From contig OY987247.1 in NCBI GenBank assembly GCA_963920765.1, positions 2,542,001 through 2,606,000 of the forward strand: DNA of 64,000 nucleotides, written 5' to 3'. Below are positions 9,492 through 60,849 of this stretch, one piece after another. Made by a program: the position numbers and the translations under genes. The stretch comes from Ulota crispa (taxonomy: Eukaryota > Streptophyta > Bryopsida > Orthotrichales > Orthotrichaceae). The first letter of the stretch is position 1, and each line of letters starts with the position of its first letter. The notes under the pieces are model-generated. The model made no database searches and was not told where the DNA came from. It saw nothing but the letters and a program-made list of their open reading frames with translations.

Positions 9492-10023
9492 CCCTTAAAC
9501 ATTGGGCTAGTCACTGTGACCAGCCCCTCTACAGTGTTTACAATGTTCACTTCACTGCCCAGCAATTATAATATAATTTTCTAAAGTTGTAGGAGCCAAC
9601 AATGCATGGTGCCCTCATTAAATTTGCAAGAAAGGCAGCTTTGGGACTTAACATTGTTTTTCTTAGTCTTATCACAATTTGGGTTGCCCAAAAATATGAA
9701 TGCATGAGATGAGATAAATTTTTGTCTTCCATGATGGACCATGTGTTCCCTACAAGGAAACATGGTTGAATTTACAGAAAAGTTGACAAAAATTGTGACC
9801 TAATCTACAGTAATCTACAGTATACTGTAGATTAGGTCACAATTTTTGACACTGTAGATTAGGTCACAATTTTTGTCAACTTTTTCTGTAGATTTGACCA
9901 TGTTTCCTTGTAGTGGTTTATGATCACTTTTGAAAAAAATCAAATGAAAAACAACTTTTTTTGTAACACAAAATCTTTTTTTAGAGCTTGTGGACATTTT
10001 TTGTCCTCCTTGACGTCTAGGGG
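9492..10023. mobile_element. TTAA-flanked (piggyBac-type) element, about 0.53 kb
   Basis: TTAA at 9488-9491 and 10024-10027. The left end reads CCCTTAAACATTGGGC; the right end, reverse-complemented, reads CCCCTAGACGTCAAGG. A CACTA hairpin (9748-9915) is nested inside. An alternative right end is GGCCAAAAAGTTTAAGGG at 10776-10793, with TTAA at 10794, which matches the left terminus somewhat better and would make a 1.3-kb element. Confidence 0.6.
9748..9915. mobile_element. CACTA-type hairpin MITE, 168 bp, TSD GTT
   Basis: The right end reads CCTTGTAGTG, the complement of CACTACAAGG; the left end is CCCTACAAGGAAACATGG, one base from perfect. The 3-bp duplication GTT is intact on both sides (9745-9747 and 9916-9918), as expected for CACTA elements. 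The arms carry three copies of the word TGTAGATTAGGTCACAA (one inverted), so the interior folds as a multi-branched hairpin. It is nested in the TTAA-flanked element. Confidence 0.8.
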
Positions 10024-11307
10024 TTAATCTCTAGGGGCACCATAAGTTGTTGGAAATTTTATGTTTATGATTCTATAAATTTTGCAATTTTGGAAACTCC
10101 AAATATACAATAGGAGCATGTTTTAAACCTTAAATTTTTCAACAACCCAAAATGAGTTGATCCATTTTTAGAATGGCCATTTATGAACTTAGGAATGTTA
10201 AGAGGCACTTGAACTTTGGCTCATTTGAAAGAGAAACAAGTTAGCTATGTAGTGGTATTTTCAAACTTATAAAAAGAGCCACTATTGAATTTACAAAAAT
10301 TGTCAAACCACTGGTGGTCTTGGAGCTGTAATCTTAAATTTTGGCCCTAGACTTGTGAAAATCTTCTATTTCTCTCATGATTTTTGAAATGTAACAATGA
10401 AGTGGTCACTATTGCAAGACCATTTTCTCACTCATTTTTTATCCTATACATACAAAACTTGTTTCTATGCATGTGGAACTTTGTTACCTTGAAAATGAGC
10501 ATAGGATGCCAACTTTTAAAATGTTAGGTGTCCAAAAGAGCCAGTCAAAGCACAATTTCAACTACTCCAAAATATTGGTTTCCTTGTAGTACAGTTTACA
10601 TTTTTGTTATAACCTTCCAATCTATGACTTGGATTGAAACCAAACTTTGTAAAGATGATAAGGACTTGACTTTCTACAAGATCTTAAGGTTATATTGGCC
10701 TAAAAATGACTCATTGTATTTTGAACTTCACCCTCTCATAACTTACAAAATCAAGATCCAAAACACCTTCAAAATGGCCAAAAAGTTTAAGGGTTAAAGT
10801 GTGAACCTTGTGGGCAAGTATAAAGTTCTCAATCAAAACAAGCAAGCCTTGAAAAAGAAAAAGAAAAAGAAAAGAAAAAATCCTTGGCCTTATTCTTCTA
10901 GCCTTTAAATTCTTAGCAATTCTTTTGCAGAAATCTTACCTCAAATTTGGGTTAGCTACCAATACAGTAGAAAAATCATGCAAAAGAATGGATGAAATTG
11001 CCCAACAACGCTAATATGCAAGCCTCAAGCGGCGAGCTTGTGAGCCTTGAGCGTGAAGTCCATGAGCATGGAGCTTTAATTTAGAATATTTTAAGAAATA
11101 AAAGAAAAAATTCATTTTTTACAAACATTTAGTAAAATGGGAAAAAAAACACTATTTATAGTAAATTTGGAGACCTATGACCATGATTATGTCCTTGCAC
11201 CTATGACTGTGCAAATGTAAATTTTAATGTTTAAAATGTCTATAGTGATAATTCTATAAACAAACTGAGGTCAAAATAATGAAATGGATTATGAGCTACA
11301 TGTATAG

Positions 11308-11402
11308 TTAGTGGGCAAAAGTCTTTGGTCAAGACTTTTTCACTTACATACTTGTGAGTTCATAAGTGAACAAGTCTTGACCGGAGACTTTTGCCCACTA
11401 AT
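11308..11402. mobile_element. 95-bp hairpin MITE, possible hAT type
   Basis: The ends TTAGTGGGCAAAAGTCT and AGACTTTTGCCCACTAAT are inverted copies, with a loop around 11345-11360. TGTATAG occurs directly on both sides (11301-11307 and 11403-11409); with one mismatch it extends to 8 bp, the usual hAT duplication length. Confidence 0.65.
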
Positions 11403-12399
11403 TGTATAGGAATTCAAAGGTTTGAGCATTGAATAAATGGAATTTGATAAAATTTGATAATGTAACATTTTAAAAAATACTAAAAGGGGTCTTACTCCTA
11501 CAAGTCCATTTTTGATTGACCTACATGAATATTTATCAATGCATTTTGGTACAAGACTTGGCCTCTTATTACAAATTTTCATATATAGTTTGCAATGAAG
11601 AAGAAAAAAGCTTTATGATGACAATATACAAAAAATCTCACGTCACGTTGATAGAAAAAAGATTTTTTAGGAAAACAAACCATTCAAGTAGTTTTGCATA
11701 ATTGTAAAAGTGTGCGCGTAGAATTACAAGTAGCAAATTTGAAGTTGCTATATATGTTAAATTCAGAAATGATTGATTTGGGACATATATTGCTGATGAA
11801 TATAAATGCATGAACAATTTCCAATGTAGAAAACTAAATTACTTAAAAGAAATCTTCATTTTCAAAAGCTAATAACAAATAACTACTGAACCAAAATATG
11901 AGCACTTTTAATCCTTGATTTTGAGAATCATTGCTTAAACTAGAAGGGCCTTCACTTTGTTGTAACTATGTAGAAGCATGTGTAATTTTTTTCATACCCA
12001 TATTGCAAAAGCAACAAAAAAGGTAATATAAGTGCTTGCAATTTACATATTGCTAGCACATCCAATGGCAGATACAACTATATTTGCAAAGTCTGGGCAA
12101 GTGCAAGTGGAAAACATTCCTATTGTAATTTGATAAACATCCTTTATGTGATTGAATCTTGTTTCAACTTTCAAATATAACAAAAGCACCTTAACCCTAG
12201 CAAAAGAAATAATCTTACTTCCAAAATCTTACCACATACATTAGCTGCCACTAGTAGAAAACTCCTTCCAAAACAACAGAAAACCAACAGTTTCTTGTTG
12301 ATTTGGGCACTTGCCCATGCTAATTGACTAATTTAACAGAATTCTGTAAAAAACTAAATACGTTCTGTTGATTTGGACACCATTATCTAAATCAACAGA

Positions 12400-13110
12400 A
12401 ATTTTGGAATCTTTTGAAGATCTTTTGGGAATTTTTTGTGAATCTTTAAGAATCTTCAAGAATCTTTTAGGAATCATTGAGAATCTTTTTATGATTTTTA
12501 AGAATATTTAAGAATCTTTTTGAGATTTTAGAATCTTTGAGAATCTTTTAAGAATCTTCATGAATCTTTGGAAATCTTTCAGAATCTTTTCAAGTTTTTT
12601 TGGAATCTTAGAGAATGTTTGAGAACAATTGAGAATGTTTGAGAATGTTTGAGAATCTTTGAGAATCTTTGAAAATCTTTTTGGAATCTTTGAGAATCTT
12701 TTGGAATCTTTTCAAGTTTTTTTGGAATCTTTGAGAATGTTTGAGAACAATTAAGAATCTTTGAGAATCTTTGAGAATCTTTTTGGAATCTTTGAGAATC
12801 TTTTGGAATCTTTGGGAATCTTTTCAAGTATTTTGGAATCTTTGAGAATGTTTGAGAACAATTGAGAATCTTTGAGAATCTTTGAGAATCTTTTAGGAAT
12901 CTTTGAGAATCATTTGGAATCTTTGGGAATCTTTTCAAGTATTTTGGAATCTTTGAGAATGTTTGAGAACAATTGAGAATCTTTGAGAATCTTTGGGAAT
13001 CTTTTGAGAATCTTTTTTGAAATTCAAAAAATCTTTGAAAATCTCTAAGAATTTTCAAGAACCTTTTTGGAATCTTTGAGAATCTTTTTAAAATCTTTAT
13101 GGAATTTGTT
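12400..13110. repeat. GAATCTTT-based minisatellite inside the CACTA element
   Basis: Dense repeats of a unit of about 10-11 bp like GAGAATCTTT/GGAATCTTTT. A higher-order period is marked by the word TTTTCAAGT at about 12591, 12713, 12825 and 12936 (spacings near 122, 112 and 111 bp), each followed by the GAGAATGTTTGAGAACAATT segment. Confidence 0.85.
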
Positions 13111-13949
13111 AAAGTATTTCAAAATACTTATAGAAATAGAATCTCTTAGACTGAATTAGAGTCCTTTAGGAATCTTTTTGTAAATCATCAAAATACTTTC
13201 AAAAAAACTATCACAATAGTTTAGGTTTGTTTTTGAAATCTTTCTAAAACCTTTTTGGACCTCATTAAAATGTTTTGAAGTTTTAAAATAAAAGAAGTTT
13301 TCCAAAAAAAAGAATCTTTTAGAAGTTTGAGTGTACATTGACTGGTTTTATTTTCTTTACTTTTCACAATTTGGTAAGATTTGAAATTAGCAACCTTTAA
13401 AGTCAAGTAAACACATGACCATAATAACAAAAAACTCAACAGTTTTTTGTTGATCTAGATACTTTTGGACACAACTTCACTAATTCAACAAAATTTTATA
13501 TAAAAAGTACAACATTTTGTTGTTTTAAATACCAAAATTTCTTTACAAACAAATATAAATGATGCTCCTCAATTCTTTGAAGAAATCATAAATGTCCCTT
13601 AAGGATTAAAAGTACCAAAAATATCTTTGTGTTACATGATAACCAAGTGTATAGTTTAATGTAAATTCTTACAAGAAACCAAAGGTGATTTTTACATTTC
13701 AAATAACACAAGGATATGTTTAACATTTCAAATTAGAAGAGCTTTTTTATTAATTTTCCAAAATAATAGGAGTATAATTGATATTCCTACAAAAAATAAG
13801 GACTATTTTTTATGTTTCATATATTTTCGGCGTAAACTTGATATTTTGAAAGACTTAAAGGGTTTATTTAGTAATTCTTCCTTCTATTACTAACCAAATG
13901 AATTAAAAAAAAACAATCTTATAAAATATTTTTATAAGCTTTAAAAGAT

Positions 13950-14342
13950 GGGAATTGATATGTGTACCACACTCTTCCAATTAATATACCACACCATGAG
14001 TTAAATTTTAAATTTCTACCATCAAAAAGCTGAATTTGAAAATTTTGAATTCAGATTTGGACTTAGAGACCATGGTATTGTCTAGAACCACAAAAAAAGT
14101 TGCAATTCAACAACACCCAATGAAAAAATTTAGTTAGGGAGAAAATTGTTAATTTTACTTTTGTTTATAAAAAAAGATAAGCTTTTTCATTGGATGTTGT
14201 TGAATTGCAACTTTTTTTATGGTCCTAGACAATACCATGGTCTCTAAGTCCAAAAACTCAAATTTTTGATGGTAGAAATCTAAAATTTACTGCAAGGGTG
14301 TAGTACAGTAGTTCAAAGGGTGTGGTTCACATATTAATGCCC
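13950..14342. mobile_element. Foldback MITE, GGGAATTGATATG family, copy A (nested in CACTA)
   Basis: The left end GGGAATTGATATGTGTACC and the right end (reverse complement GGGCATTAATATGTG) are inverted. The flanks TTAAAAGAT and TTAAAAACT are a 9-bp duplication with two differences. The arms fold around a centre near 14150 and contain the family word TTGCAATTCAACAACA and its complement. Confidence 0.8.
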
Positions 14343-14854
14343 TTAAAAACTATCCAAAACTATGCAAAAGTCAATAGAATTTTGATTTTATAATTGCAAG
14401 GATTTAATTTTGTAACTTTTCCCGACTTCATGTTGTTTGAAGCTATCAAACTATGAACACTATTTTTAACAAAATAAGGTTCTTTTTACAAAAAAACTAT
14501 CACTAAATAATATTTATTAATGAATCCAACCTTTGCTTGCAACAATCCTTATGAGATTTGTGAATTCCAAAAAAAATTATAAACAAAATCAAAAGGATGG
14601 AAATAAACAATTTATTTAAAATTTCTAAACACCTTCTCTGATTTTAGCTCATAACTTTTGATAAAAAGATTGAAATCCAAAAAAAATTGTTGGAGGTGAA
14701 AGTAAAGCACATCTACTAACTTTTCTTAGTTCTAAGTTTTTTGAAAAAATGTCTTTTAATGGGCGGAAATAGCCTCCAAAGTCTACTGGATTACTAAAGA
14801 CATGAACATTTAATGTACAAATAGAATCAAGATACTTATGTGTGCATGTGCATT

Positions 14855-14930
14855 TGCACATTCTCTAGTGGTTTTGAGAATGTGTTAAGGTTGTGGAGTG
14901 TGAGAAGAGAGGTGGAAGGTTCAAACCCCG
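14855..14930 (+). repeat. Possible tRNA-derived SINE head
   Basis: CTCTAGTGGTTTTGAGAA resembles an A box and GGTTCAAACCCC a B box, about 45 bp apart, as in tRNA-derived SINEs. The sequence does not fold as a tRNA and no SINE tail was verified. Confidence 0.3.
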
Positions 14931-15241
14931 CTATCGGTAGCTGCCCGGGAGTTCGGGCAGCTGCCCAAAAGTTTGGGCAGCTGCCTATTCCCCTAAAAAG
15001 TTCACATTTTTGTAAAATAATAACAAATTCTATGAAAAAAAAATTTAAAAATGAAAAGAAATAGAATTGAACAACATAAAATACGTAATAGAAATCAACA
15101 ACAAATTAACAAAAAACTGTAAATAATCAACAGAAAATCAACAGAAAAGTACCCAAATCAACTTGACCAAATTCACAAAAAAAATCAACAGTTTTCGGTT
15201 GAAATTTTGTTGATTTTGTGCTGAATTTTCTACTAGTGTGC

Positions 15242-16602: not shown

Positions 16603-16606
16603 TTAA

Positions 16607-16847
16607 CCCATGAGCGCCCAAGAGACATTATAATGTCTGTCAACAAGCTGGGTCAACTCAATTTTGACCAATATAATCTCATTGCACGTTTGGTGAAACC
16701 ACTTTCAATCAAGTCCAGCATGATGGAGACACTACCCACTAACAAATCATATAGTCCGATCTTGTAAATCATATTTTTCAATCCACAAGAGCACTTTGAT
16801 TGCACACAAATCAAGCTTTCTCTGTTTCAACTTTGAGCGCTCAAGGG
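16607..16847. mobile_element. TTAA-flanked (piggyBac-type) MITE, 241 bp
   Basis: TTAA at 16603-16606 and 16848-16851. The left end CCCATGAGCGCCCAAGAG pairs with the right end TTTGAGCGCTCAAGGG. The ends match those of 46552-46963 (GAGCGCCCAG), so the two form a subfamily. Confidence 0.75.
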
Positions 16848-18125: not shown

Positions 18126-18138
18126 GACATTATTTTTT

Positions 18139-18700: not shown

Positions 18701-18974
18701 TTTTTTTTTAAGAAATGGAGGTGGCTGGACGCACCCCCAAGAGCTTAGTGAGCAACGACTAGGCTCTTGGGGGTGCGCCCAGCCAGCCCCAGAGTGAAAT
18801 TTGACAGGGCTCAGCAGCAGTACATTGAGGATTTTTGTAAATTATTTGGCAACCATTACCCTTGGTTCCTCACTCAATCCCAACAATTCCCATGAATTGT
18901 CTTGATTCATGAAATCATTAATTGATCCTCTTACTGCTGCTTCAATGCCTTGGTTCTGAAATAATGTTTGTTAA

Positions 18975-19887
18975 CTCCTAAAGGATCACACCTTTTTTTT
19001 TAGAAACCTAGTGATTTTGGGCAAGTACCTGTGATTGGAGCTTTTCATATTTTAGGCTGAAATTTTAAGAGAATGTGGGGATGAGGTTTATCTTTCATAT
19101 GCACTAAGTTTCATGACATTTGGAATTACAGGTAAAAAATCATAGCCTAATATGTTGCTTTTTACGTTCGGCGGGCAGCTTGGGCAAATTTTTAAAAAAA
19201 ACTTTTTTCAAAAACAAAAATATTAGATTGGTTTAGGAGATTTATGTGAATGTAGGAAGCTTTGAATCATTCCGTTTGGATCAACAAGATGAAAGTTACA
19301 AGGATTTTTTGTTTGCAGGCAGTTATGCATTCTCTACTCCAAAATGAACTTTGAAGTCCTTTATTTTACTCAATTTTCAACATTTTGAAAAAAAAACAAA
19401 ACCAGAGAATGAACATTGTTTATGACAACATTATGACCATTGGGATTGGCATTTTTCATTTCCATAATTAAATTCTTAACAATTTAGTGTTTAGAATCAT
19501 TCTCTACTTCTTTTTACTTACTAATTTTTTTCCATATTTAAAACAACTCCAAATGATTTGAAATTTTTTTGACATGTACTTTACTTAGGTGGGATAAGGA
19601 ATTTAGAGAAGCACCACCCACATGGCCTTTTTTGCCTTAGGAATTTCACCGTTTGAAGAGTAGCTGCCCGGTTTTTTACAAGACATTTTTGAATATTCAA
19701 ATCATTCTAACTTCCAATCCACATGGTGAAAAACTCTGAAATTTTTTCCACATCTTCTAAAACTATTCTTCTACAAGATCCAACGGTCACAAACGCATAA
19801 AAAGATTCTTTTTCAAATTTGGTTGATGCTCTAAAAATGGCAGTTTTGAAGAGTTTTTGGTGAAAACTTTGCTTGGTCGTTTAGGGG
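18975..19887. mobile_element. TTAA-flanked (piggyBac-type) element, 0.91-kb class
   Basis: TTAA at 18971-18974 and 19888-19891. The left end is CTCCTAAAGGATCACACC and the right end GCTTGGTCGTTTAGGGG. The interior shares phrases with 39473-40400, 40596-41207 and 48570-49518, for example a GGGCAAGTACC-like word near the left end, 'AGAGAATG' blocks, and a GGGCAG-containing segment followed by a run of A. No coding frame. Confidence 0.8.
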
Positions 19888-23631: not shown

Positions 23632-24255
23632 CCCCTAAATGCCTACGGCACCAATTTTTGGTGTTTGCAATACATTGAAGTTCAATAAACCTAATTAAGT
23701 TACTATTTTTAGTAGTTTACATTTTGAATTTATTCTTTGTGAAGTCTAATTTTAGGATCAGCAATTTGATTTTGAAAATGATCAATTATGAGTTTTTTGT
23801 TCAAGCTTTTGTGCAAGGGTCTCAACTTTCTCTAGTGTTGAGAGCTCTTGGAAATGAGCCTCAAATACACTAGATCTTGGAGAAAATTTTACATAAAAAG
23901 TTCATTTAAAAAATTGTAGAATTTTAGAAAAAAAGCTATAAAGTGATTAGGGTTATGTATGTTATTTTCTTTAACCTTGTATTTTTTTGATGGTCATTTT
24001 TTTAAATCCAACATCAGAAAAGAGAATTCAAAGATTTCAAGTCATTTTTGTAGTTTTAACACCCTCATGATCAAACATTATAATTTTTCAATTCATTAGT
24101 GATGTTGTTGTGTTTTCTTTTCTTATGTGACCTTTAATTTATCTAGTTTGAATTTGTAAGATTACAATTCAAAAAAAATTGATACAACTTATTAACATGT
24201 CGCCTTTTCGTTCAATTTGACTAAAAGCCCAAAAAAAGCCTCAGGCATTTAGGGG
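23632..24255. mobile_element. TTAA-flanked (piggyBac-type) element, 624 bp, next to the GID9-like gene
   Basis: TTAA at 23628-23631 and 24256-24259. The left end CCCCTAAATGCCTACGGC and the right end CCTCAGGCATTTAGGGG are inverted. Its interior is like 41955-42597 ('CACTAGATCTTGGAGAAAA' against a one-base variant there). It lies only about 35-40 bp before the probable 5' UTR exon of the gene at 25309. Confidence 0.9.
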
Positions 24256-29963: not shown

Positions 29964-30181
29964 CCCTTTACCCTGGGCTTAGTAGATACGTTGTTGTATA
30001 ACTGGCATTTACTACCATTAAGAAGTTTTATTTTGGGATTCCAAATATCTCAAATTGCATTGATCTATATTCCAACTTCTTTTGTTGATCTCAAATGTAG
30101 AAAGGGTTTGAATCCATTCCAAATACAAGACAAATATCTTGTATTGTATTGATCGTAGCAATATGCTCAAACATTTAAGGG
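29964..30181 (-). mobile_element. TTAA-flanked (piggyBac-type) MITE, 0.22-kb class, reverse copy
   Basis: The right end AAACATTTAAGGG is followed by TTAA (30182-30185); the left flank has decayed to TTAG. The interior is the reverse complement of 49909-50136 and 60624-60849, sharing the 'TTGATCTCAAATGTAG' and 'TTTGAATCCATTCCAAATAC' words or close variants. Confidence 0.7.
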
Positions 30182-31348: not shown

Positions 31349-33005
31349 AGATAGAAGCACCCATAAGCATGATTTTAGGGATTTTGGATTATGAAAATCA
31401 ATTGACAAACTTCGAAAAAAATACTTTTAGGAGGAAATCAAAAATAGTGGCATCATTTTTAAAGTTCTAGTTGCAAGCATTTGTTCAAGAAAATTTTTGA
31501 AGTCCAAAATCAATGAAAATGTATAATTGCATGTAGGAGATGCTAAAAAAGATGCTCATTGAAAGTCTACATTATGCTCATAATACTAGTTTGAATAGTC
31601 ACTTAAACAATAATATGGGCACCTAAAATTGTCTTAAAAGGTGACTAAATACCATGCTTAGTGTACTTAAATGGTGTCTCAACTTCCTTTGTTTATTTAC
31701 TCATGGTATTGCAAAACTACTTATAAGTAGAAGAAAACAGGGATAAACAATTGCCACAAATTGCCACATCTAGGTCACAATAACTGCTTTACAATTGCAC
31801 AACATTTGTACAACTACAATTTAGTCGTGCAATTGTTGTGCAGTTGTTGTACAGTACCCAAAAGAAAGAGTACACAACACCCTTTTATGGCATCCAAAGA
31901 AGTATGTATAACAAAGAATAAAATTGACATTTCATTCTCACATTTTTAATATGCGATACTCATGCAATCTTCATCAAGCATATCAAATTTCAATTACTAA
32001 AACCCAACATCCTATTTTTGGTAAATGGTTTTGTGTCAAAATCATGGTTTTACAAGAAAGTTGATTAATAAATAGTGGTGATGAATTTTTGAGATTTGAT
32101 TGCATGGATATATAGGAGACATCCATATGCACATCTTCCTTTCAAATAAACATTTCCAAAAAAATTCAAAATTCCCTCTATAGAGATTTTAATGTTAGGA
32201 TGATCATGACCAAATTTAGTAAAATACATATTTCTTCATGGAAATTAGTTTTTGTTATTGGACTCATACATTGTGATTAAGTTTGTACCTTTAAACATGA
32301 TAATATGTTTCAAAAAAATATGTATTTTACTAAATTTGGTCATGATCACCCTAACATTAAAATCTTTATAGAGGGAATTTTGAATTTTTTTGGAATTGTT
32401 TGTTTGAAAAGAAGATTTGCATATGGATGTCTCTTATATATCTATGCAATCAAATCTCAAAAATTCATCACCACTATTTATTAATCAACTTTCTTGTAAA
32501 ACCATGATTTTGACACAAAACCATTTACCAAAAATAGGATTTTGGGTTTTAGTAATTGAAATTTGATATGCTTGATGAAGATTGCATGAGTATTGCATAT
32601 TAAAAATGTGAGAATGAAATGTCAGTTATATTCTTTGTTATACATACTTCTTTGGATGCCATAAAAGGGTGTTATGTACTCTTTCTTTTGGGTACTGTAC
32701 AGTTGTTTGTGCAGTTGTAAGGCAGTTATTGTGACCTAGTCGTGGCAATTCGTGGCAGTCATTTATGGCATGTTTTTCTTCTAGTTAACATAATTCACTG
32801 AACTTATTTCTATACCCATTGGCATTCAAATGGGATGCACTTGTTACCCATAACCATTATTTTGTCACCCAAAACCGCTACTTTGTTTCTCATAACCAAT
32901 GTTTTTTTTTTTGGTATTTGTCAATCATGGGACCACAAAACATAGATATGGGTGTAAATGTAGGTCACATCCATGGAGACCTCATGTTTATGGGTTCTGC
33001 TACAT
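31349..33005. mobile_element. Long AGGTAGG-family element split by a hairpin
   Basis: Outer ends AGATAGAAGCACCCATAAGC and TTTATGGGTTCTGCTACAT, with TA at 31347-31348 and 33006-33007. The two arms together match the uninterrupted copy near 7200-7897. About 1.06 kb in the middle (31725-32784) is a later hairpin insertion. Confidence 0.7.
31725..32784. mobile_element. About 1.06-kb near-perfect hairpin, nested
   Basis: The arms are inverted copies over roughly 500 bp each. CTAGGTCACAATAACTGC at 31770-31787 pairs with 32722-32739; GTCATGATCAcc-type words near 32190-32210 pair with 32335-32360. The centre is at about 32254-32273. The ends, AGTAGAAGAAAAC and its inverse TTTTTCTTCTAGT, resemble a worn CACTA terminus (CACTAGTAGAAAA), but no 3-bp duplication is readable. 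Confidence 0.75.
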
Positions 33006-39472: not shown

Positions 39473-40400
39473 CCCCTAAAGGCCCGAGCAATTTTCTCCA
39501 ATGAAAGTCATTATTAATTGTCACTTTAGGGGGAATGAGTAGAGAAGTAGGAAATAAAGTTTGTTTTGCAAATCCAACCATAGGATCTTGCCTTAAACTG
39601 GAAGAGGTACTTGTGGGAAAAAATCAGGTCATTCTAGATGGAAAGGAGGGAGATATTTACATCTAAAGTGAAAAAAGGTTTCTTTTTGTGCTATCCAAAA
39701 AAATTTGGAAGCCTTTGTCCACACTTACATGAAAAAAATTACTTTACACAAAGTTGAGGTTTATTTTTTCCATGTAGCATACCAAGTTAGGTATGTGCAG
39801 GAGAATTCAAATCAATTGGAACTATACAACATATGGGGGAAAAGAGTAAGTAAAAAGAAGTAGAGAATGAGTCAAATCACTAAATTATTAAGAATTTAAT
39901 TATCAAAATGAAAAAAAGAAAATCCCAACGGTTATAATGTTGTGATAAACAATCTACTTCTTTAGGTTTAGTTTTTTTTTCCAAAATATTAAAAATTGTG
40001 GAAAGTAAAGGACTTCAAAGTTTATTTTAGAGTAGAGAATCCATGATTGCCCACAAACTAAAACATCTCATAACTTTCATCTCATCAATTGAAGTTGAAT
40101 GATTCAAAGCTTCCCGCATATATAAAAATCTAAAGAACCAAATTCAGATTTCTATTTTTAGAAAATACAAATTTTAAGAAGTTTTTGGGTGCTCGGATTG
40201 CCATCCCTCCCCTGGGCAGCAAAAATTCTTCCATATCTTCTTTGTCAAATGTCAAAATGACAAAAAAATAGATTCCCGGATAGGTCTTGGAATTCCCCAC
40301 CTTCAATAAAAGTCTTAAAAAATCACAAAAACTAGATTAGCTATAGGTACATGCCCGGAATCTCAACTGTCCCCCAAGAGGATAGCTGAGCCTTTAGGGG
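39473..40400. mobile_element. TTAA-flanked (piggyBac-type) element, 928 bp
   Basis: Perfect TTAA on both sides (39469-39472 and 40401-40404). The ends CCCCTAAAGGCCCGAGC and GCTGAGCCTTTAGGGG are inverted. It is of the same class as 18975-19887 and 48570-49518 and in opposite orientation to 40596-41207. No ORF of note. Confidence 0.9.
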
Positions 40401-40595: not shown

Positions 40596-41207
40596 CCTCT
40601 AATGACCATTGTTCCTTGGGGGGACAGGTTGGACATTGGGCATGTACCTACGGCTAACTACTTTGTGTGATTTTTGAAACTTTTATTGAAGGTATGGAGT
40701 TCAAAGATCTATGTGGGCATCTAATTTTTTCTTCATTTTGACAATTTATGAAGAAGTTATGCATGAATTTATGAAATTTTGGGGAGGATTGCCCATCTGG
40801 GCAACCCAAAAACTTCTTTAAATTTTACTTTTTTTTAAATGAAAATTTGGAATTGGTTTGTTAGATTTTCTTATAGGTATGAAGCTTTGAATCATTCAAT
40901 TTCAGTCAATGAGATAAAGTGCAACTTTTGGTAGAGCAAATTTTTTGTTACAAGAGTGGTCAAGGGCTTTTGAAAAATTTGGGCAGCATGGAAAAAAAAC
41001 TTTTTCTTTCACTTTAGATGTAAATATCTCACTCCTCTCCATTTGGAATGAGCTGATTTTTGTCCCACAAGTACCACTTCTAGTTTGGGGCAAGATTGTA
41101 TGGTTGGATTTCCCAAAAACATAACACAAAATCCCTTTTTACTAAGCCTCCTATAACTAGCATTTTTCAGTGATTTTCAAAGAAAAAAGAGCTTGATCCT
41201 TTAGGGG
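40596..41207 (-). mobile_element. TTAA-flanked (piggyBac-type) element, shortened 0.93-kb-class copy
   Basis: TTAA at 40592-40595, left end CCTCTAATGACC; the right end GATCCTTTAGGGG has lost its TTAA. The interior is the reverse complement of parts of 39473-40400 ('GGGCATGTACCTA', 'TTTATTGAAGGT', 'CACAAGTACC'), with about 0.3 kb missing. Confidence 0.7.
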
Positions 41208-41954: not shown

Positions 41955-42597
41955 CCCCTAAATGCCCAAGCAACCAAATTTGGGTCGCAACAAAAATTTG
42001 AAGATGAATAAAACCTTATCAAATCACTATTTTCAGTATTTTTTTTCAACATAAGTTGGTTTTGAAGTCTATTTCCAACATCAAAAATCTGATTTTGAAA
42101 ACAAAAAATGCTAATTTTTCTACCCAAGAATTTGTACAAGGGTATCCAGTGCAATCTTGAGTTTTCTAGTGTTGGAAGATCTTGAAAATGAGCCTCAAAT
42201 ACACTAGAGCTTGGAGAAAAAATCATATTAGAAATCCATTTAAAAAACATATAAGAATAGATTTTTGAAAGCCATAAATTGATTAAAGTTAAACATGTAA
42301 TGACCTTAAACCTCACATTTTTTTGGTAGCCAACTTTTTAGATTTGACTTGTGAAATGAGGATTAGAAAACTATAAGTCACTTTTGGAGTTTTAACACCC
42401 TCATGTTCAAACATTATAATCTTTCAAACTATATGTGATATTGTTGTGTTTTCTTTTCTCATGTAATCTCTAACATGATTAGTTTAAATTTGTACAACTA
42501 CAATTGAAAAAAAATTGATGAATTTTTTGAAAAGGTTGGTTGATTGTTCTATTTTATGGAAATTCCAAAAAGCTCAGATAGGGCTTGGGCATTTATT
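41955..42597. mobile_element. TTAA-flanked (piggyBac-type) element, about 0.64 kb, right end worn
   Basis: TTAA at 41951-41954, left end CCCCTAAATGCCCAAGC; the right side has GGGCTTGGGCATTTA but the final GGGGTTAA is lost. Same class as 23632-24255. Confidence 0.7.
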
Positions 42598-42599
42598 TT

Positions 42600-43151
42600 T
42601 TCAAAATTCACTAAGGAAAAGGATGGTAAATTTAGATGCGTAATTGAACCAAATATGGACTCAATGTATATAATCTAACCCTATGGATGGGGAGAACACC
42701 TTGTTTTTTTTTTTGTAAAATATCAAGAATTCAATCGGATTTATTGTTGGAGGTAAATATTATAACAATTGAGTTGGGTGAAAAATCTCTAGTTTTTTCA
42801 TGCGCATGTGGTAACAGTTCATGTGAGTTGTCTTGAGAAGGGCCTTTTTATTTTTTAAAGGCTAGGTTTTCAAACTTTTTAACAAGTTTAATTCTTGACA
42901 AAGTGCATAAACCCAGCAATCATAGGAAGTAGCTAAGTGGACAAAGAGGTAAAAAATCCCATTTTATTTGCCACTCAATAAGGGTTCTACAAGAAATTTG
43001 CTAAATGCTATGAAAAATCTAGTTAGTGAGTATAATTGAGAATTGGACTTATACGTAGGATGAATGTTTTTTTAAAGATGAAATGATAGCACAATTTATT
43101 AGTATTTTTCAAAAATTGCAATGATATTGCTACTGTAAAGAAAAAAGATAT
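42600..43151. other. Intergenic, nothing recognised
   Basis: AT-rich, with no coding frame over 60 codons of any character and no terminal repeats. Confidence 0.4.
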
Positions 43152-43160
43152 ATGAGAGAA

Positions 43161-43570
43161 GAGAATTGATATGTGTACCACACCCTTTCAATTACTGTAC
43201 CACACTCCAAGAGTAAATTTTAGATTTCTACCATCAAAAAGTTGAATTTGAGAATTTGGAATTCAGATTTGGACTCAGAGACCATGATTTAGTCTAAAAC
43301 CACAAAAAATTTGCAATTCAACAACATCCAATAAAATGGCTTATCTTTCTTTACAAATAAAAGTAAAAGTAATACTTTTCTCCCTGGCTAAACTTTTTCA
43401 TTGGGTGGTGTTGAATTGCAACTTTTTTTATAGTTCTAGATTAAATCATGGTCTCTAAGTCCAAATCTGAATTCAAAATTTCAAATTCAACTTTTTGATG
43501 GTAGAAATCTAAAATTTACTTTGGGGTGTGGTACAATAATTGAAAGGGTGTGGTACACATATCAATTCCC
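43161..43570. mobile_element. Foldback MITE, GGGAATTGATATG family, copy B
   Basis: Perfect 9-bp duplication ATGAGAGAA (43152-43160 and 43571-43579). Ends GAGAATTGATATGTGTACC and GTACACATATCAATTCCC. The arms share TTGAATTGCAACTTTTT and its inverse. A 9-bp duplication is typical of Mutator-like elements. Confidence 0.9.
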
Positions 43571-43948
43571 ATGAGAGAATTCCAAACGCAATTTGAAATA
43601 TTTTAGGGTTGTGGGGTTGAAATGTGATATTATTTTTGGATATTTGATGTATGGTGATATTGCTTTGATCCATCTTTAACCAAAAACGCATACAAATTTT
43701 GAGGCCTTACTTAAAAAACACCATTATTTGTCAACTCACATACCCAATTTCATTTTTGCCTTTTTAGTTGGATGCAAAAAAACTCTGATCACGTGCATTT
43801 TTCAAGACCAAATCCCAAATTGTTGAGCATTTTTTATTCTATAAGCCAAAAACTACTTTTTGCAACCAAAACATGGTGGCGTGATCTCTAAAGGGTTAAG
43901 GTGAAAAATTTGTGTTTTTTTACAAATAAGAGTAATAGTAAAAATTTA

Positions 43949-46551: not shown

Positions 46552-46963
46552 CCTTTGAGCGCCCAGAGTTATTTTTGGATTTAGGAGAAAATGGGTAGTT
46601 TAATGGCCACCACAGCTTGAAAAATTACATTTAGAAAAAGTGACTGTAGGATTTGAAAAAGGGCTACCTTCTCTCCTGATGGAGACCAACCATGACTGTT
46701 TTCACCATACAAATTGAAAGAAAAAATGAGATGAAGTTGTGGGCCCCAGCAACAGGATCTTGTTGTTGGGGCCCACAATTTTATCTCATTTTTTCTCCTG
46801 ATTGGTACAATGAAAATGATTGAGGCTAGTCCCCATCAGCAGAGAAGGTAGTCCTTTGTCAAATCCTATGGTCACTTTTTCTGAATGTAATTTTCCAAAC
46901 TGTGGTGGCCATTAAACCCCCCATTTTCTCCTAAATCTTAAAATAACTCTGGGCGCTCAGGGG
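46552..46963. mobile_element. TTAA-flanked (piggyBac-type) hairpin MITE, 412 bp
   Basis: TTAA at 46548-46551 and 46964-46967. CCTTTGAGCGCCCAGAG pairs with CTCTGGGCGCTCAGGGG, and the arms pair almost throughout (for example GGGGCCCACAA at the centre, near 46750). This is the only copy of the TTAA group that is a full-length hairpin. Confidence 0.85.
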
Positions 46964-48569: not shown

Positions 48570-49518
48570 CCCCTAAAGGACCAAGGGTGATTTTTGAGAA
48601 AAAATTTCAGAAACTACCAGCTTTTAGTGCATTGCTCAAAATCAAAAATCAAAACCTTTTTTTCTCAATTTCAACCATACAAAAGTTTGTAAAACCAATA
48701 AACCAACATGTGCAAAAAATTTCAGCCCATTTGATTGTGTGGATTGTAAGATTATAACGTTTGAAGTGAGAAAAACATCCTTTTTTCATTCCTGCAAAAC
48801 AAGGTCAACAGACTTTGAGCCTTCCTAGAGTAAAATTTTTACTTTACTCAAATTTGAGCTTTTTGACCATTCACAAGTACATGATGTTAGGCTCACTCAT
48901 GAAAAATTTCAGATGCAAATATAGAGTCTAGCTTTTTCTAAACCACCCTCCAATGCAAGGAGGTTTAGTGAATTGGCAATACATCAGTCATTCTTTCATG
49001 ATTTCTTGTGCAATGTGGAAGTCTTTTATTTGAACTCTGAAAGGTGAAAATTTGGAAACAAACATTTGGAATATGTGAAAAAAAGTTTCCAGAGCTTTGG
49101 GTTTATAGATTGAAAGATAATGGGGCTTGAAGTTAGAGGATTTTTTTTTTTCTTGAAACTGCCCAAACATAATTAACAAAGTTTGACTCTCTTCAAAATG
49201 TGATGTGAGAGCTCTTTTTTTTTTGACAGTAGTACACCATATTTTTTCAGTTTCATACTTGCCAAATTTCAAAAGTTGATGAGAGTTTTAGCATAAGATT
49301 CTCCAGAAATGCTCAAACTGCCCAAATTGCCCAGTTTCTTTTGGGCAACATAATTTTTGAACCAGGCATCCAATTGGGGAAAAAATTAGATTTCCACTTG
49401 AGAGATACATATTTACACCTTGTGTAACAATTTTAAGAACATCCAATAAAAAATAACTTCATATGACCTTGCCCGAGTTCTCAAGTGGCTGTTGAACAGC
49501 CACTTGGTCCTTTAGGGG
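48570..49518. mobile_element. TTAA-flanked (piggyBac-type) element, 949 bp
   Basis: Perfect TTAA (48566-48569 and 49519-49522). The ends CCCCTAAAGGACCAAG and CTTGGTCCTTTAGGGG are a perfect 16-bp inverted repeat, the best-preserved of the group, so it is probably among the youngest copies. No transposase frame. Confidence 0.95.
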
Positions 49519-49908: not shown

Positions 49909-50136
49909 CCCTTAACATCTAAAAGACCCTTTACGCCAATACAATACAAGATATCTTTAGTGTATTTGGAATGGATCCACATGTTTACTATATTTGAGAT
50001 CAACAAAGAAGTAAGAACATAGATCAATGCATTTCTAATTAATGAGCTTTTTCAAAACCCAAATTAAAATTTCTTGATGGTAACAAATGTCAATTGCATG
50101 ACAACGTTTCTATTATGCCCACGGGACGTCTAGGAA
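49909..50136 (+). mobile_element. TTAA-flanked (piggyBac-type) MITE, 228 bp
   Basis: TTAA at 49905-49908 and 50137-50140; ends CCCTTAACATCTAAAAG and GGGACGTCTAGGAA. The interior is like 60624-60849 ('GGAATGGATCCACA', 'TTTGAGATCAACAAAGAAG'). Confidence 0.8.
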
Positions 50137-53470: not shown

Positions 53471-55603
53471 ATGGCAGACAGCCAGGCCAACGATGCTAGT
53501 AGCCTTTCCGTCGGTGCATCCAAGTGTGACTTGAATAAAGGAGCCAGCAAGCGCCGGATGCTACAACATGGTAAATCACCAACCTGTACAGTAACTCGTT
53601 CTAAATGTACAAATTTGGAGAAGATGGAACCCACTCCATCGTCGCATTTGTATTCTAAACCATCCTCAATCATCCTCCGGATCAAACAACACCCCCTCTC
53701 ACTTGAGGTTCATCTCCCTGAAGAGAGCTTTCCGAGTTCTTCAACAACGGATTCCTCCGATTCAGACAACAGCCCCGGTGGAGCGACTCAATCATCCAGC
53801 ACGGTGGAGAAGAGATCCTTTGATGAAGACTCGGATGCAGAGAGTCCTTACAATGCTAGTGGAGCGATCGACTCCTTTGCCGAGCTGGAGAATGCACATG
53901 CATCTGAAAATCGTACCATCTTGATCCATCGGATGGCTGAGGTACACTCATTCCTTACGATCCTTGTCAGATTTCAATCCCCCTCACGGTACATGTAGGA
54001 CTCATAAAAAGCGTGAAATAGTCAAGGCTTCTAAAGTGCACCTGCAACATTATCCTGGTAATAGTTTTGTGCGTTGAATACATCTAGATAGAGTTGATTT
54101 GTTTGATACACTACATCTTCGGACCGTCATTGAGTTTGCAACTGGTGTTAATAGTAAGAATTTGCCTGTGTATGTTACTTATTTCGTACCTTCTTCTTGT
54201 TCAGGTCGCACTGAATATAAAATTAGGGCCTACAGGACTATACCTGGCTGTTCAACTGCTGGATTTGTATTGGAATCACCACCGTGGGAAAGGCAAGCTT
54301 TTGGATTCTGTACAGCTGCAAGTGCTTGCCCTCACTTGTGTTCATGTCGCCAACAACAGTTTCTGTAGCAACAAAAGGTACAAGAGGCCTTTCTGCATTG
54401 CACTGAAGCAAATCTTTGCTAATCAATTTTTATTGTTTAACATAGACTTGTTGATTTCATATATGTTTCTTGTCATTATCTAGATGAAAAGAGACGTTTT
54501 GACGATTTGCTCATTTGAGAACGGCTGTGAAAGTCTCGTGACTTATCCAAGTGTGTGTCTGTGAGCAGAACCCCAGACGAATTTTGTCGCCTGGCAGGGG
54601 TAGCAGAGGGAACCGTGAAAGGATGTATGATAGTAAAGCAAGAAGCATCGCTCGAGGCCTTGCTGGGAGGCCCGCAAGCTACAGCTACGATTTCTACTTG
54701 GGGGCTTTGGTATGGGCTTTCATTCAAATAAGCTCACCTTTGTTAAAACTTTTCGTTTATGTGCATGCCGTTTTCTAATTGTAAATATACACTTGGAGGA
54801 TACTATTTGCGTCACTTATGAGTTTCACAACCAATATGTAGGGAGGGGCCACCTCAGATATACAAGAGCCAAATCTGTGGAGATCAAATTCTAATTACTA
54901 TGTGATAAAATATGCCATATGCCACCAGTGTAGTGAGCCTGATATTTGTTGTGTGTGATGTGTTCAGGCTCAAAATGGGGCATCCAGCCAACCAGCAGCA
55001 TCTGTTACAGTTTGTAGGTTTGTTGAAGAGCTCTGACTTTGGAAAAGCACACTTCCCGCGTGATCTCATGCAAGCATCGCACTTTCCTCGGACTGCTTCC
55101 ACGTCATCTGTAGATGTTCTCACGACGAATGCAGCCAAGGTAAGAAAAGCCTTACAAGGGAATGGCTAAAGCTCTTCATTGGTATTATCGGGCTGTATTG
55201 AAGCTTTCTAATTCGTCACTCTATATGCTGTTGTGCATCTTTCGTAAGATTTACAATCGCCGTAGATCTCTATCGTAACAAAGAACGGTCGACTATTCCA
55301 GATTCGAGTTTTTTGGACTTCGTTTTTGTTAGCTAGTTTTGTGATTTTCCAACAAATCTGTGTTCTTGCGCTACAATAGCTTAGCTGTAGTTGAGAAAAT
55401 GTTGGAGGAAATTTTTGAACGTTCTCGAACTTGATTGTGTTTGTAATTCTGTACACATCTGAAGTGGCACGTACTCTCTCTTGCAGGTTGTGAATGCACT
55501 CTTGTCAGCTCAAGGTTGTGCTTCCTCTCCCTCTAGCAAGAAGAGGCCCTCGGAGAAGCCCATTGTGTTCGTGCCAATGAAACGAGGTGCAGCTCAGGGT
55601 TAA
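53471..55603 (+). CDS. Divergent cyclin-box protein, 5 exons, 357 aa
   Basis: Exons: 53471-53941, 54205-54377, 54569-54709, 54968-55139 and 55487-55603. All introns are GT-AG and phases agree (0, 2, 2, 0). Residues 1-140 are Ser-rich and likely disordered ('SSSTTDSSDSDNS'). The cyclin box starts near 146: 'ENRTILIHRMAEVALNIKLG' then 'GLYLAVQLLDLYW' and 'LQVLALTCVHVANN', which follow cyclin helices 1-3. The usual tryptophan of the first helix is R, and the A-x-K-[YF]-E-E motif that contacts the CDK is replaced by 'ANNSFCSNK'. The middle ('TPDEFCRLAGVAEGTVKGCM') fits helices 4-5 loosely. The C-terminus is basic ('SSKKRPSEK'), perhaps a nuclear signal. The LAV-LLD and L-ALTC spacing is most like J-type cyclins, but this is an inference from eye. 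CDK binding is doubtful given the lost residues. The ATG is the first in the long exon, after a probable UTR acceptor. Confidence 0.7.
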
Positions 55604-56290
55604 AGGTTTAAATCGAGGTGGAGTGTATATGATGGGGGTTTTCGGTTTGCCCCCTTGTGACTAAACAATAACGCTGGTAAGTACAATCTCGCAGGTGAAA
55701 CTTGTACACACACACACTAGAGATCGGAATGCCCAGGATTTATTTGTACAATTTCAACACCCAAGAATAACACTGGAGGGAATCCCAAGTTGTTACTTTG
55801 CTCACAGGAACCTTTTGTAAAGCATTTAGAAATTCGCTTGTTCATAGATCGAAATCAGTGAAAAAGGGAAACATGAAAGTTAACTGATACCAACCTTTTC
55901 AAGGCTTTATTTTTTTTTCAAATTCTTTTAGTTTTGAATCGAGTACACAAATAGGTGGTAGATAGCTGTCCTCGACCTCATCAAGGGTTGCATGGGTTGT
56001 ATTTGACTACAGATTTGCCTAGTCTAGATTTGAGAGCGAATGACAGCGTATGTGTACATTCTTTTTGCTGCTGCTCTTTTTGTCTTTAGAGGTTTGGTAA
56101 ATAGCTGCAATGTAGTCTGCAATTCTGCATTTTGGGCTTGTTCAATAAACTGTGCCTTTAGAGACCCATGGCACAGAATTATGGTAAATCTGCTTCCATT
56201 TGTGTATAACTCAATAAAAGGATTCTTTCACTGGACTTGTGTGTGCACTTTGTTTTCTCTTGTAGGTTCTATTCTTGACCATTTTTAAAC
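55604..56290 (+). other. 3' UTR and flank of the cyclin-like gene
   Basis: Gene-like composition continues after the stop. Candidate polyadenylation signals AATAAA occur at about 56145 and 56211. The frame at 56040-56288 has no family and lies in this UTR. Confidence 0.45.
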
Positions 56291-59121
56291 TCATGCTCTT
56301 GTAAGGAATTGAAAGAGGATTTCAATGCACTCTTATATGTGAGTTTTTGGAAAATGCCTGAATATATTACGAGTTTCTAAAATTGCAATCTAATATTAAC
56401 CCTAAACTCTCAAGCTCAAATTGGTTGCATTCTTGCAATCATTGTCTAAGCTATTGCTTTGGCAAGATGAGTAACTTCTGGATAAGGATAGCAATAAATT
56501 GTGCGTATTTATCTTACTCCTAAAGAACTTGATTGTTACGGTGGCTCGATATTTGTTTGTGGTAAAGAGACTATAAAACGTGAATTTTGATCAACGTGGA
56601 TTTTGAGCAATGTGGAATTGTTTGTTATATATGGAATGTATCTGAACATTGTATTGGTCTAGATACTATGCATATATAAAGTACAACACTTTATAAGGGT
56701 TAAGGGACTTATTGTAAGAGCTTCTTGCAGTTCATAATTCTAACAAGTAGCTACATTACAAAAGGCTCTTCTTAATTTAAATAAGCAGCTACACTACAAG
56801 AGGCTTTGTCCTTGTAACATTGGCTTGTTTTTTAGTAAGGTACCTTTGATTTGATTTGCTCAATGCAAAACCTCCTCTCTTGTGGTCCAAAGCCAATAAA
56901 GGGTCACATAAAATACCATTCAACATGGCGAGTTACTCAAGTGTCCATAACAAGTTATGGAAGTGTCTATGATCACTAATCCATTATGCTATGTAGACAT
57001 TTGACCAACGTGCTTGTGGTTTGTATGGAGTGTCATATTGAAATACAAGGGGGTCTACGAGTTCTTGTTTGTAGAAATTTGCAAGAAAATTATTTGTACC
57101 AAAAAATAAAGTTCCTGAATCCAACACAAATAAATCTATGAATCATTTTTTTTAGTGAATGTAATAAGTACATGTTTTTTATCAACCATGCAAAGCAAAT
57201 AGTTACATAGACCAAGCATTAAAAGAAGTTTTGCAATAAGCATTTTATTTAATGTATTATGTTTTTGTAGTACGTTTTTGTGTTTTGTGATACATTTTTT
57301 ATACTTAACTTTATGCTGAAATTTAGACGTTCTTAGACTTTTCAAACCAACTCTAAAGAAGATTTGAAATATGCTTTTTATTCCTAGTAATAGGAACTCC
57401 TATCAAGTTCTTGTGTACCTTATGAAGCTTTCTAGATGGTATATATAGGAGGTGTACATACAAGTCAAGGATGTGTTCTCAATTTTAAACAAAATCATTT
57501 ATTGTACTTTATTGAATGATATTTCACCTTCCATATCCTTTACATCTCATGGAGTTCTAATGTTTTTTCTTCTCCATATGCTTATTCTTTTCCCAATAAT
57601 ATGAAAATGATACACATATACATCTTGTCAGCTTGTTTTACTTTGAGTCATTAATATTTTCACATTTTTTTAAGGATTGCTCATAACACCATGGTAAATG
57701 ACAAACTTGGCACTTTTGGTTTCTATCAACACGTATTTGTCATGTAAATATTCAAATTGTTCACTTTCATCATGTGCGCAAAGGGAGATCAAACGAGCCC
57801 AACAAGCCAAAGAGAGTCTAGTTGGTGGTTAAGAGTCTCCAAGAGGATTTGGAGTTAGTTGAGTGCAAATAAAGAGGTCTCAAATGTGATTTTTCAACAA
57901 ACATTGATTAATGTGCTAAACATCCAACACATTGATCCCCTAAAAGTGCTAAGGGAGGGATATTGCAGAATTTAAGGCACATATATTGCAAAAATGCATC
58001 AACCATTACAAAGAAACAATACAAATACAAAGGACAATTCAGTCACTTTTGTATAAGAGTTAAATGAATGAAATCCCACCATTTATAACGAATGCAATGT
58101 TGTTTTAAAATTGCCTTTTCATTATCCACATAGTGCATGTTTGCTCTCTTAGGGTCCTATACTACAATATTCACTCTTTTTTTCTTTTTTTAAAATTCTT
58201 TTAGTATTTATTGTCTAGTGTAGGCTTTCTAGGGCTACAATGCATCAAGTTCTCATAACTAATTTGAGGACCAAATGACAAAGGCTGAGTTTAGAATCTT
58301 AGATTTTGTACTTTGCAAACCCATATTAATTAAGCTTTTAGGAACTAAGCAGTCAAAACCTAAATCTCCACCCTTTTGCATGTAATAGATTGGATGAGCA
58401 ACATATTGAGGCCCCTTATATACTAGAGGCAAGAAGCTATAAAGAAAGTCTCTCATGGGCCATAGTATGTCCTTGAAAGGCCAGCTTTTCATAGGTAAAG
58501 GCCTTTGGTTGTAATGTCAAGTGAGAAGATGTCACAAAATTATATATTTAAAAAACACACATGTACATAAATAAATAAAATTGGTTAGGAGGATTTTGGC
58601 CCCAAATGGTCTCCCTAAATTTTAGTCAAACCCACCTCTTTTGCCGGCCTAACAAAGATTCTAGGGACCCAAAAATTGTGCATTTTTATTGCCATAGAGA
58701 GCAAAAGTGTTGTTCACCTCATTTTCTCTTCTACTTATCTTTTGGAAAAAAAAAACTTATATAAAGTGACACCGCTTGGTCTTCTCAATTTTTGTAGTTT
58801 TCATTGGTTGAAATTTTCCTCTCCATGGCTTCTTACCTCTAGTGTGAAGGGAGCATGATTGGGAATGCAATGAATACTACTAAGTTTACAACCTAAGTAA
58901 CCAAAATTTATATCCAATGCATTGCCGTAGCCTAACCCTATTAGGACCTAAACCAAAAGGTTGCATTATTACCACACAAAACTTGGGTATGTTCACGCTT
59001 GTTGTTAGGAGGGGTTTTATCAATATGAATGCAGTCTAAAAGTGTGTCCAAATGCATCTAATTTACCTTTGCTACTACCCCTCTTAAGACCAAGTGTGAA
59101 CATGGTTACCCTTTGCAAGGC
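56291..59121. other. Intergenic, no gene recognised
   Basis: AT-rich, with only short frames. A weak TTAA-bounded candidate (56400-56699) is discussed under rejected items. Confidence 0.4.
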
Positions 59122-59124
59122 TTA

Positions 59125-59683
59125 GGGCGGCTTCACACTATGGCCAAAGGTTGAGAGGCCGTCGGTTTGCACCAATAAGATTGCAAGAAACCAAGGGTTT
59201 GGCCACTCAACCCTTCACACTAGAGGCCAAACTCCAAAGGCCATCATCCTCCAAATGTTTACATGGTAGCACTTTATCATTTAAGGTTGACAGCCTCTCG
59301 ACAATAGTTTGGGTCAAGCAAAAATGGAGATCCAAACTATAATTGAGAGGCTGTCACATTGTTTTCATAAAATAAACAAGAGTTGACAAAATCTTGGCCA
59401 TTGGGTTTGGAAGGTCTAATAAATGCTATGGTTTTGGACTTTGGGCTTGGCCTTTGGAGGCCCCACACTATGGCCATGCAATTTGAGAGGCCGCGGAAGC
59501 TCATTGCCAAAAGTCTGGCCTAATGGACATGGCCTTTGGAAGCTTCACACTAAAGGTGGCCAATGGTGTCAAAAACAATATTTTAATACCTATTTTCAGC
59601 TCATTTTATTGACCTCTCACCAAAGTTTGGCCACTCAATCCCACGGGCTCTCAACTAGGCCGGTCATAGTGTGAAGCGGCCCC
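59125..59683. mobile_element. PIF/Harbinger-like MITE, 559 bp, TSD TTA
   Basis: TTA on both sides (59122-59124 and 59684-59686). The left end GGGCGGCTTCACACTATGGC and the right end GTCATAGTGTGAAGCGGCCCC are inverted, apart from small differences. The interior repeats the core TTCACACTA/CCACACTATGGCC and GAGAGGC(C) several times (near 59148, 59212, 59462, 59548), an internal subterminal-type array. No transposase frame. Confidence 0.85.
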
Positions 59684-59689
59684 TTAGTT

Positions 59690-60619
59690 AGCCACTTTAG
59701 CAATATGGGTAGCAGAACCGGTTAGCAGGCCAAGGAACCGACAAATCCACAATCCAATCCAAGAGTTATTAACGATAATTAATCAAGCCAAACAGCTTTG
59801 AAATTTTATCAGATACAGGTTGATTTCAGTTGGTTTCTTTTCAAAAGAAAGAGTCTAAACTATGGTAAATAAACTTTGATGACCTATGACCACTCTTGGC
59901 TTAACAATGCAAGGTTTACAGAATTGCTATACTCCATTGCAGCTTTGGTACGCACAGGGTTTTAATTAGTTCCACTTAACTTGATTGAGAGCAACGAAGC
60001 TAGAAGGTCATCGGTTCTTAACCCCTTGACCCATCAAGATTTGGTTGACTAGTTTCTGGTCAATTTTGACCCTTTTTAGGGTGTAGGGAGAGTATGTTAA
60101 GGAATTTGGGGATGTGGCAAAGGGATGGATGTAGGCAATTAGGAGCCTCATAGCTTGGAACAAAAATCAAGTTTAGTTGGGCTACCACATGGTCAGGGTA
60201 TTGGAAAAACTTAAGAAGTATGGGCTGCCAAAATATAGGAATGAATGTAGAAAGATGGTTATAATTGCTAAAGATCAAGGATTAGAACGCGTTCCCAAGA
60301 GTCTAGGTTTTCCCTAAACCCATGATCACCCTAAAAATTGTCACATGGTCCATTAAGCAACAAGAAAGAGCAATCCATAAAGAAATACAATCTACCATCG
60401 TAGAGACCATTGTATTTGTATGAAAATGCATACATGCACATTTAAACCTATATGCAAACAAAATCAAACATAAAAAAATGATGTAGACTTATAAACCATG
60501 CATGGCATTGCCATTCATACAATTGGATCTTTTGTAGGCATTTGTATAATTTGTTAGTATGAGTTTTTCCAAATAACCAAAAAAGGCCTTGCCCCCCCCC
60601 CTAGAATTGACCACGGAAC
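59690..60619. other. Intergenic, nothing recognised
   Basis: Includes a lone TTAACCCC left-type end at about 60017 with no convincing partner, and a run of ten or more C just after 60590. Confidence 0.4.
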
Positions 60620-60623
60620 TTAA

Positions 60624-60849
60624 CCCCTAAACGTCTGAGCGTGCCGCTTCAACCAGTACAATAGAGGGTATTTTCCTTATATTTGGAATGGATCCACACC
60701 TCCACTACATTTGAGACCAACAAAGAAGTTGGAGAATAGATCAAAGTGGTTCTAATGAGCTAGTTGAGATTCCAAATTAAAATTTCTTATTTGTAGCAAA
60801 TGACAATTATACGTCAGCGTATGTACTATGTCCTATGGACGTTTAAGAG
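60624..60849 (+). mobile_element. TTAA-flanked (piggyBac-type) MITE, 226 bp
   Basis: TTAA at 60620-60623 and 60850-60853. Ends CCCCTAAACGTCTGAGC and CTATGGACGTTTAAGAG are inverted at CTAAACGTC/GACGTTTAAG. It is of the same 0.22-kb class as 29964-30181 and 49909-50136. Confidence 0.85.

Follow-up and report, generated by a model that had tools for sequence, protein, structure and literature searches.

TTAA-flanked miniature elements in a land-plant genome very probably derive from piggyBac-superfamily transposons

Which transposon system gave rise to the short, TTAA-flanked elements that crowd a stretch of 64,000 bases on contig C6 (bases 2542001-2606000, the whole of which is termed the window below) of a land-plant genome comprising 274.8 Mb in 157 contigs? 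The piggyBac transposase genes are best known from animals, and the original prediction had nevertheless assigned these elements to a group of piggyBac-type miniature inverted-repeat transposable elements (MITEs) with a transposase source elsewhere in the genome. Our analysis indicates that the window elements very probably descend, as non-autonomous elements (MITEs), from piggyBac-superfamily DNA transposons that reside in this land-plant genome.

Each of the 12 listed element starts was inspected. TTAA is located directly before 11 of them, with 29964 (TTAG) as the exception, and flanks both ends of eight elements (9492, 16607, 18975, 23632, 39473, 46552, 48570 and 60624), in agreement with the earlier statement that TTAA borders most elements on both sides. 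The remaining four (29964, 40596, 41955 and 49909) have one intact flank only. CC starts 21 of the 24 window ends, the exceptions being the left end of 18975 (CT), the right end of 60624 (CT) and the decayed right end of 41955 (AA), and the window ends thus carry the CCC/CCY-type termini by which the piggyBac superfamily is recognized. Left and right pairs with a terminal inverted repeat (TIR) score of at least 9 were found seven times in the window, whereas none of 30 first-order Markov sequences contained any; six of the seven pairs remain, because 41955-43895 was re-bounded to 41955-42599. Matching of individual ends to a 20-base consensus gave no discrimination (14-37 matches at 13/20 or better in 10 Markov sequences). 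While elements and flanks proved to be real, they do not form the single group that had been proposed, and several MITE families were distinguished instead: A (18975, 39473 and 40596, about 930 bp), B (23632 and 41955, about 620-645 bp) and C (29964, 49909 and 60624, about 220 bp). The elements at 9492, 16607, 46552 and 48570 were unlinked to other window elements at the family threshold used.

The association with TTAA extends throughout the genome. The exact 21-mer TTAACCCCTAAAGGACCAWTG, which consists of TTAA plus the element end of one family, had 1361 matches (664 + 697), compared to 0 for a reversed-pattern control. Without the TTAA requirement the same end was matched 1579 times (765 + 814), and TTAA is positioned directly outside in 1361 of these (86%). 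Of the family A loci on contig C1, 30 were inspected; a right end matching at 15/20 or better was present in 27 of them, of which 22 span 906-958 bp, and the bases outside TTAA appeared non-repeating by eye; L014 and L015 represent a single duplicated locus.

Searching the genome with the Pfam profile PF13843 (DDE_Tnp_1_7) yielded 528 first-look candidates, and the 116 that were scored gave at least 120 matches on contigs C1-C11, all over the curated cut-off and with a best E value of 1.3e-73. The same profile had no match in 14 control genomes. A translated piece of 368 amino acids from locus L064 matches the solved piggyBat structure 9c0f (1.7e-16) as well as transposase 6x67/6x68 (3e-13). 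In the numbering of T. ni piggyBac, the catalytic residues D268, D346, D447 and D450 are retained in 18, 13, 18 and 16 of 20 translated domains, respectively, and domains without catalytic aspartates are mostly stop-bearing. Identity of these 20 domains to T. ni piggyBac is 19-26%, compared to 27-81% among themselves; they cluster into three groups at 40% identity and into eight at 50%. Near-complete stop-free domains are present at C4:3591922 (profile positions 2-340) and at C8:19570986-19572215, where two rows together cover positions 5-349. C1:1180709 and C8:19570986 were considered as possible domesticated genes, since their rows lack stops, and were set aside, as nothing beyond the open frames supported this.

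The transposase loci share their termini with the window MITEs. Twelve loci were read, and among the labels used here L061, L064, L065, L066, L067 and L068 are longer reads of L044, L042, L055, L056, L041 and L052, respectively. In L064 a stretch of 5738 bp has identical 15-bp ends (CCCCTAAATGCCTAA) with TTAA on both sides and encodes, in two open pieces, a PF13843 transposase whose C-terminal stretch appears Cys-rich by eye. Both ends are also present in L059 (5019 bp) and L061 (5094 bp), and the left end is exactly 2521 bp upstream of the domain in each. In nine of the 12 loci the domain is followed, at a distance of 1.4-2.5 kb, by a correctly oriented right end of the pattern TTAACCC(C/T)T, compared to one locus with the wrong orientation. 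The terminal 350 bp or so of family A are homologous to the last 350 bp or so of L065 (79%, E 4e-78) and L066 (71%, E 7e-43), and in both loci the end TTAACCCCTAAA is found where this homology stops at the end of the element. Of the 24 window ends, 13 matched one of 11 ends of transposase loci in at least 13 of 16 positions, whereas only 1 of 2394 other CC-starting 16-mers did. Long relatives with ends of the same type thus encode DDE_Tnp_1_7 transposases, and the predicted piggyBac source does exist elsewhere in the genome. Ends of the GAGCGCCC type (16607 and 46552) are nearest to L061 (12-14 of 16), which belongs to a transposase group other than that of L064-L068. The different end types (CCCCTAAANGCCC versus CCCTTGANCGCCC) would be expected to belong to different transposase groups, and the MITE families are probably tied to more than one of these groups.

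Insertion into other repeats allowed the target to be viewed in paralogous empty copies, a check that had been suggested together with the prediction. The joined flanks of 36 TTAA-flanked pairs were aligned across the junction to other copies, and seven gave alignments. Three of these are well-supported nested insertions, namely L002 (in a family A copy), L022 (in a family B-like copy) and L023 (in another repeat), whereas the matches for L008, L014/L015 and L035 were weak or gapped. Together, L002, L022 and L023 produced 32 junction-spanning alignments, 23 of which have no gap near the junction, and one position of 4 bp corresponds to the TTAA that borders the insertion on each side. A single target of 4 bp is compatible with the paralogous empty copies, and the TTAA target and its duplication correspond to those of piggyBac, with the caveat that TTAA is a palindrome.

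Several observations weigh against the assignment to piggyBac or narrow the evidence for it. The nine gapped junction alignments all concern L002, and although most gaps in the six that were shown fall into the adjoining A-rich run, the gap in L031 is within the four bases themselves. None of the empty copies shown reads TTAA (ATAA, GTAA, CTAA, GCAA, CTAG, CTTG, CTGG, GTAT, TTAT and others), and the invaded copies must therefore have differed at this position. Since TTAA is palindromic, a duplication of 4 bp reads the same as one of TA within a preferred TTAA. On the side of the transposase loci, 412 of the 528 PF13843 candidates are outside the scored set, and only 10 of 120 rows (eight loci) are stop-free, so that most scored transposase copies are relics. 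The 12 loci read (6.5-8 kb each) were picked by us from the list and are not a random sample, and the end pattern was fixed after the L064 ends and the homology to L065 and L066 had been seen. Upstream left ends were as often in the wrong orientation (four of 12) as in the correct one (four of 12), and the left ends therefore rest on individual cases; both ends were found in just three of the 12 long loci. Finally, the family A queries included at most 2 bp of flank, and the homology therefore reaches the end of the element without an independent test of the border.

The palindrome bears most directly on a derivation from Tourist/PIF-Harbinger or Stowaway/mariner elements, whose TTA/TAA or TA duplications would by chance fall within TTAA. 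Tourist and Stowaway are common types of plant MITEs according to the excerpted text of a review (PMC10004981), they resemble the window elements in being small, TIR-ended and present in high copy number, and a TA duplication inside TTAA would leave identical letters. Their duplications of 3 bp (TAA/TTA) or 2 bp (TA), as described in the same review, and their other transposases differ from what is observed here, where TTAA is outside 1361 of 1579 exact ends and a terminal sequence is common to the window MITEs and the piggyBac transposase loci. We consider this origin very improbable. Elements of the Kolobok superfamily likewise insert at TTAA and are listed from chlorophytes and rhodophytes in PMC9587614, which gives their termini as 5'-RR...YY-3', whereas CC...GG is found here. 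Together with the PF13843 scores and the matches to solved piggyBac transposases at loci with the same ends, this leaves Kolobok an extremely small probability, although no search aimed at a Kolobok transposase was made.

It is also conceivable that the transposase copies represent contamination, for instance of animal or oomycete origin, and that the MITEs belong to another system, given that piggyBac is best known outside plants. The PF13843 matches are distributed over eleven large contigs (C1-C11), including C1 with its (TTTAGGG)n end, and the same MITE families adjoin the transposase copies, so we attach next to no probability to this explanation. A land-plant host, as the plant-like character noted at the outset had implied, is well supported by the plant-type telomere repeat (TTTAGGG)n in which contig C1 terminates, a LEA_2 coding stretch in the window, a pectinesterase stretch in L024 (neither family being strictly plant-only) and an rbcL gene on contig C157 with 96% identity to that of a moss-like plant; the host is perhaps a moss. 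Another contig has a partial match to rbcL (95%) in an open frame of 964 amino acids (G000:C97:118173-118880), which could be an organelle variant or a fusion.

For the window elements as piggyBac derivatives, the proposed mechanism is as follows. A piggyBac transposase from the relatives of about 5-6 kb elsewhere in the genome would bind the common terminal repeats and excise the element, which would then be inserted at a TTAA and thereby acquire TTAA on both sides. These transposases would mobilize the MITEs in trans. Seamless excision is known for piggyBac and may be presumed for the window elements as well.

The copies also carry information on age. A first MITE alignment with 59% median identity contained mixed orientations and was replaced by a direction-adjusted alignment of 30 elements (the 27 mentioned above plus L006-L008), in which two groups of 12 have a median divergence from consensus of 6.0% and 7.6%, with six elements outside these groups. 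The MITE copies are therefore not brand new. The evidence leans slightly towards an old, native and diverse piggyBac radiation in a land plant, probably a bryophyte, with three or more transposase groups and more than 100 confirmed, perhaps several hundred, loci. Each group would cross-mobilize MITE families of its own, including one with more than 1000 copies, and the elements would also carry a second conserved protein. The latter corresponds to a conserved coding stretch (WRxLxxxQIAKLLGW-like) that precedes the transposase domain by about 1.5-2 kb in L059 (1503-1874), L060 (1537-1848), L061 (1059-2240), L062 (1494-1709) and L063 (6549-5815, minus strand). It had no convincing family in Pfam, with one match at E 0.097 that is below its cut-off, and may be a first transposase exon or an accessory protein.

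Similarities to T. ni piggyBac and piggyBat include the TTAA target, the CCC...GGG ends, a DDE_Tnp_1_7 domain with DDD motifs, the Cys-rich C-terminus (L064) and the matches to Protein Data Bank entries 9c0f and 6x67. In contrast, the elements described here differ in their land-plant host, the low domain identity to the T. ni sequence (19-26%), the length of about 5-5.7 kb and the second conserved upstream stretch. Like the angiosperm piggyBac-type MITEs in the excerpt of PMC10004981, the window elements are non-autonomous, have short TIRs and are assigned to PiggyBac; the angiosperm MITEs are grouped there by TIR, internal sequence and target site duplication, whereas here parent-type transposase loci with common ends were found in the same genome.

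PiggyBac is usually considered rare or absent in land plants. Two plant transposable element tables contain very little of it, with 1230 piggyBac fragments totalling 122 kb in C-Fern (table in PMC6890710) and one 75-bp piece in feather grass (table in PMC8319324). On the other hand, occurrence in plants has already been stated, as PMC8086355 names fungi, plants and metazoans as hosts of piggyBac-like elements, the 2023 review (PMC10004981) counts PiggyBac as one of seven MITE superfamilies in angiosperms, and PMC10794571 likewise mentions plant piggyBac-like elements or MITEs. Literature search listings, mostly at listing level and with subscription papers and Repbase outside their scope, did not contain a paper with native piggyBac elements of land plants as its subject. 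Plant piggyBac-like elements as such are thus already known, and what is surprising is how numerous and diverse they are in this host. If the radiation is indeed native, piggyBac would have played a major part in shaping some plant genomes and would not be an animal and fungal speciality. The abundance and diversity of piggyBac here, together with the common ends that tie it to MITEs, make it possible to test whether it is ancient in plants and has disappeared from many lineages or was acquired horizontally by some. An animal-derived piggyBac tool is already in use in rice according to PMC5505980, and native plant TTAA-targeting ends are now available for comparison with it.

Closer examination of the individual elements revealed the following features. 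Family A comprises a 913-bp member at 18975..19887 (minus strand, TTAA on both sides, right end matching transposase locus L065 at 15/16), a 928-bp MITE at 39473..40400 (plus strand, TTAA on both sides), the first 348 bp of which correspond to the 3' end of L065 (74%), and a 612-bp member at 40596..41207 (minus strand) with the right flank CATA. The first and third are in opposite orientation to 39473, and the 305-bp left part of 40596 is 86-89% identical to genome copies among the matches listed. Family B is represented by a 624-bp MITE at 23632..24255 (plus strand, TTAA on both sides), whose ends both match the L064 element at 15/16 and whose first 33 bp are 85% identical to L064, and by a 645-bp member at 41955..42599 (plus strand) with a decayed right end (TTCA). 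The left 16 bases of the latter are identical to transposase locus L068, with 85% identity over the first 48 bp. Its initially considered end at 43895 was dropped in favor of 42599, since a palindromic repeat in its own right, also found in L064, L065 and L068, occupies 43163-43568. The members of family C are a 218-bp MITE at 29964..30181 (minus strand, left TTAG, right TTAA), which is opposite to the other two, one of about 226 bp at 49909..50134 (plus strand) with a decayed right end (AATT), and one of 226 bp at 60624..60849 (plus strand, TTAA on both sides).

No strand was assigned to the four unlinked elements. The element at 9492..10793 has the ends CCCTTAAAC, and a copy in L060 matches its start with 73.5% identity over 257 bp and lacks about 165 bp (about 9750-9913). 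Its right end is ambiguous, as TTAA follows both 10793 (12/16 TIR match) and 10023 (9/16). The 241-bp MITE at 16607..16847 has the ends CCC(A/T)TGAGCGC(C/T)CAA with TTAA on both sides, and its left end matches the transposase-bearing L061 element at 14/16. Similarly, the near-palindromic 412-bp MITE at 46552..46963, with the ends CC(C/T)(C/T)TGAGCGCCCAGA and TTAA on both sides, matches L061 at 12/16. The 949-bp MITE at 48570..49518 has identical 16-bp TIRs (CCCCTAAAGGACCAAG) and TTAA on both sides, and its ends match L067 and L065 at 15/16. Comparison of six window open reading frames with Pfam returned a sub-threshold Cyclin_N match as the sole result, and an Rfam search of the window gave no matches.

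Additional repeats were noted in and around these loci. The palindromic repeat of about 400 bp in the window (43163-43568) is also present in L064 (5715-6120 in reverse-complement coordinates), L065 and L068; its position inside or beside several piggyBac loci suggests that it is probably another MITE family. Near position 1491 of L007 two different TTAA elements adjoin with one TTAA in common (GCGCTCAGGGG-TTAA-CCCCTAAAGG), as is expected from insertion of one element into the other's flank. L067 contains a long (HTYI)n-coding microsatellite at about 5100-5800, possibly within a piggyBac element. An inverted repeat in the window at 31848-32701 has 389-bp arms that are 96% complementary and spaced by 76 bp.

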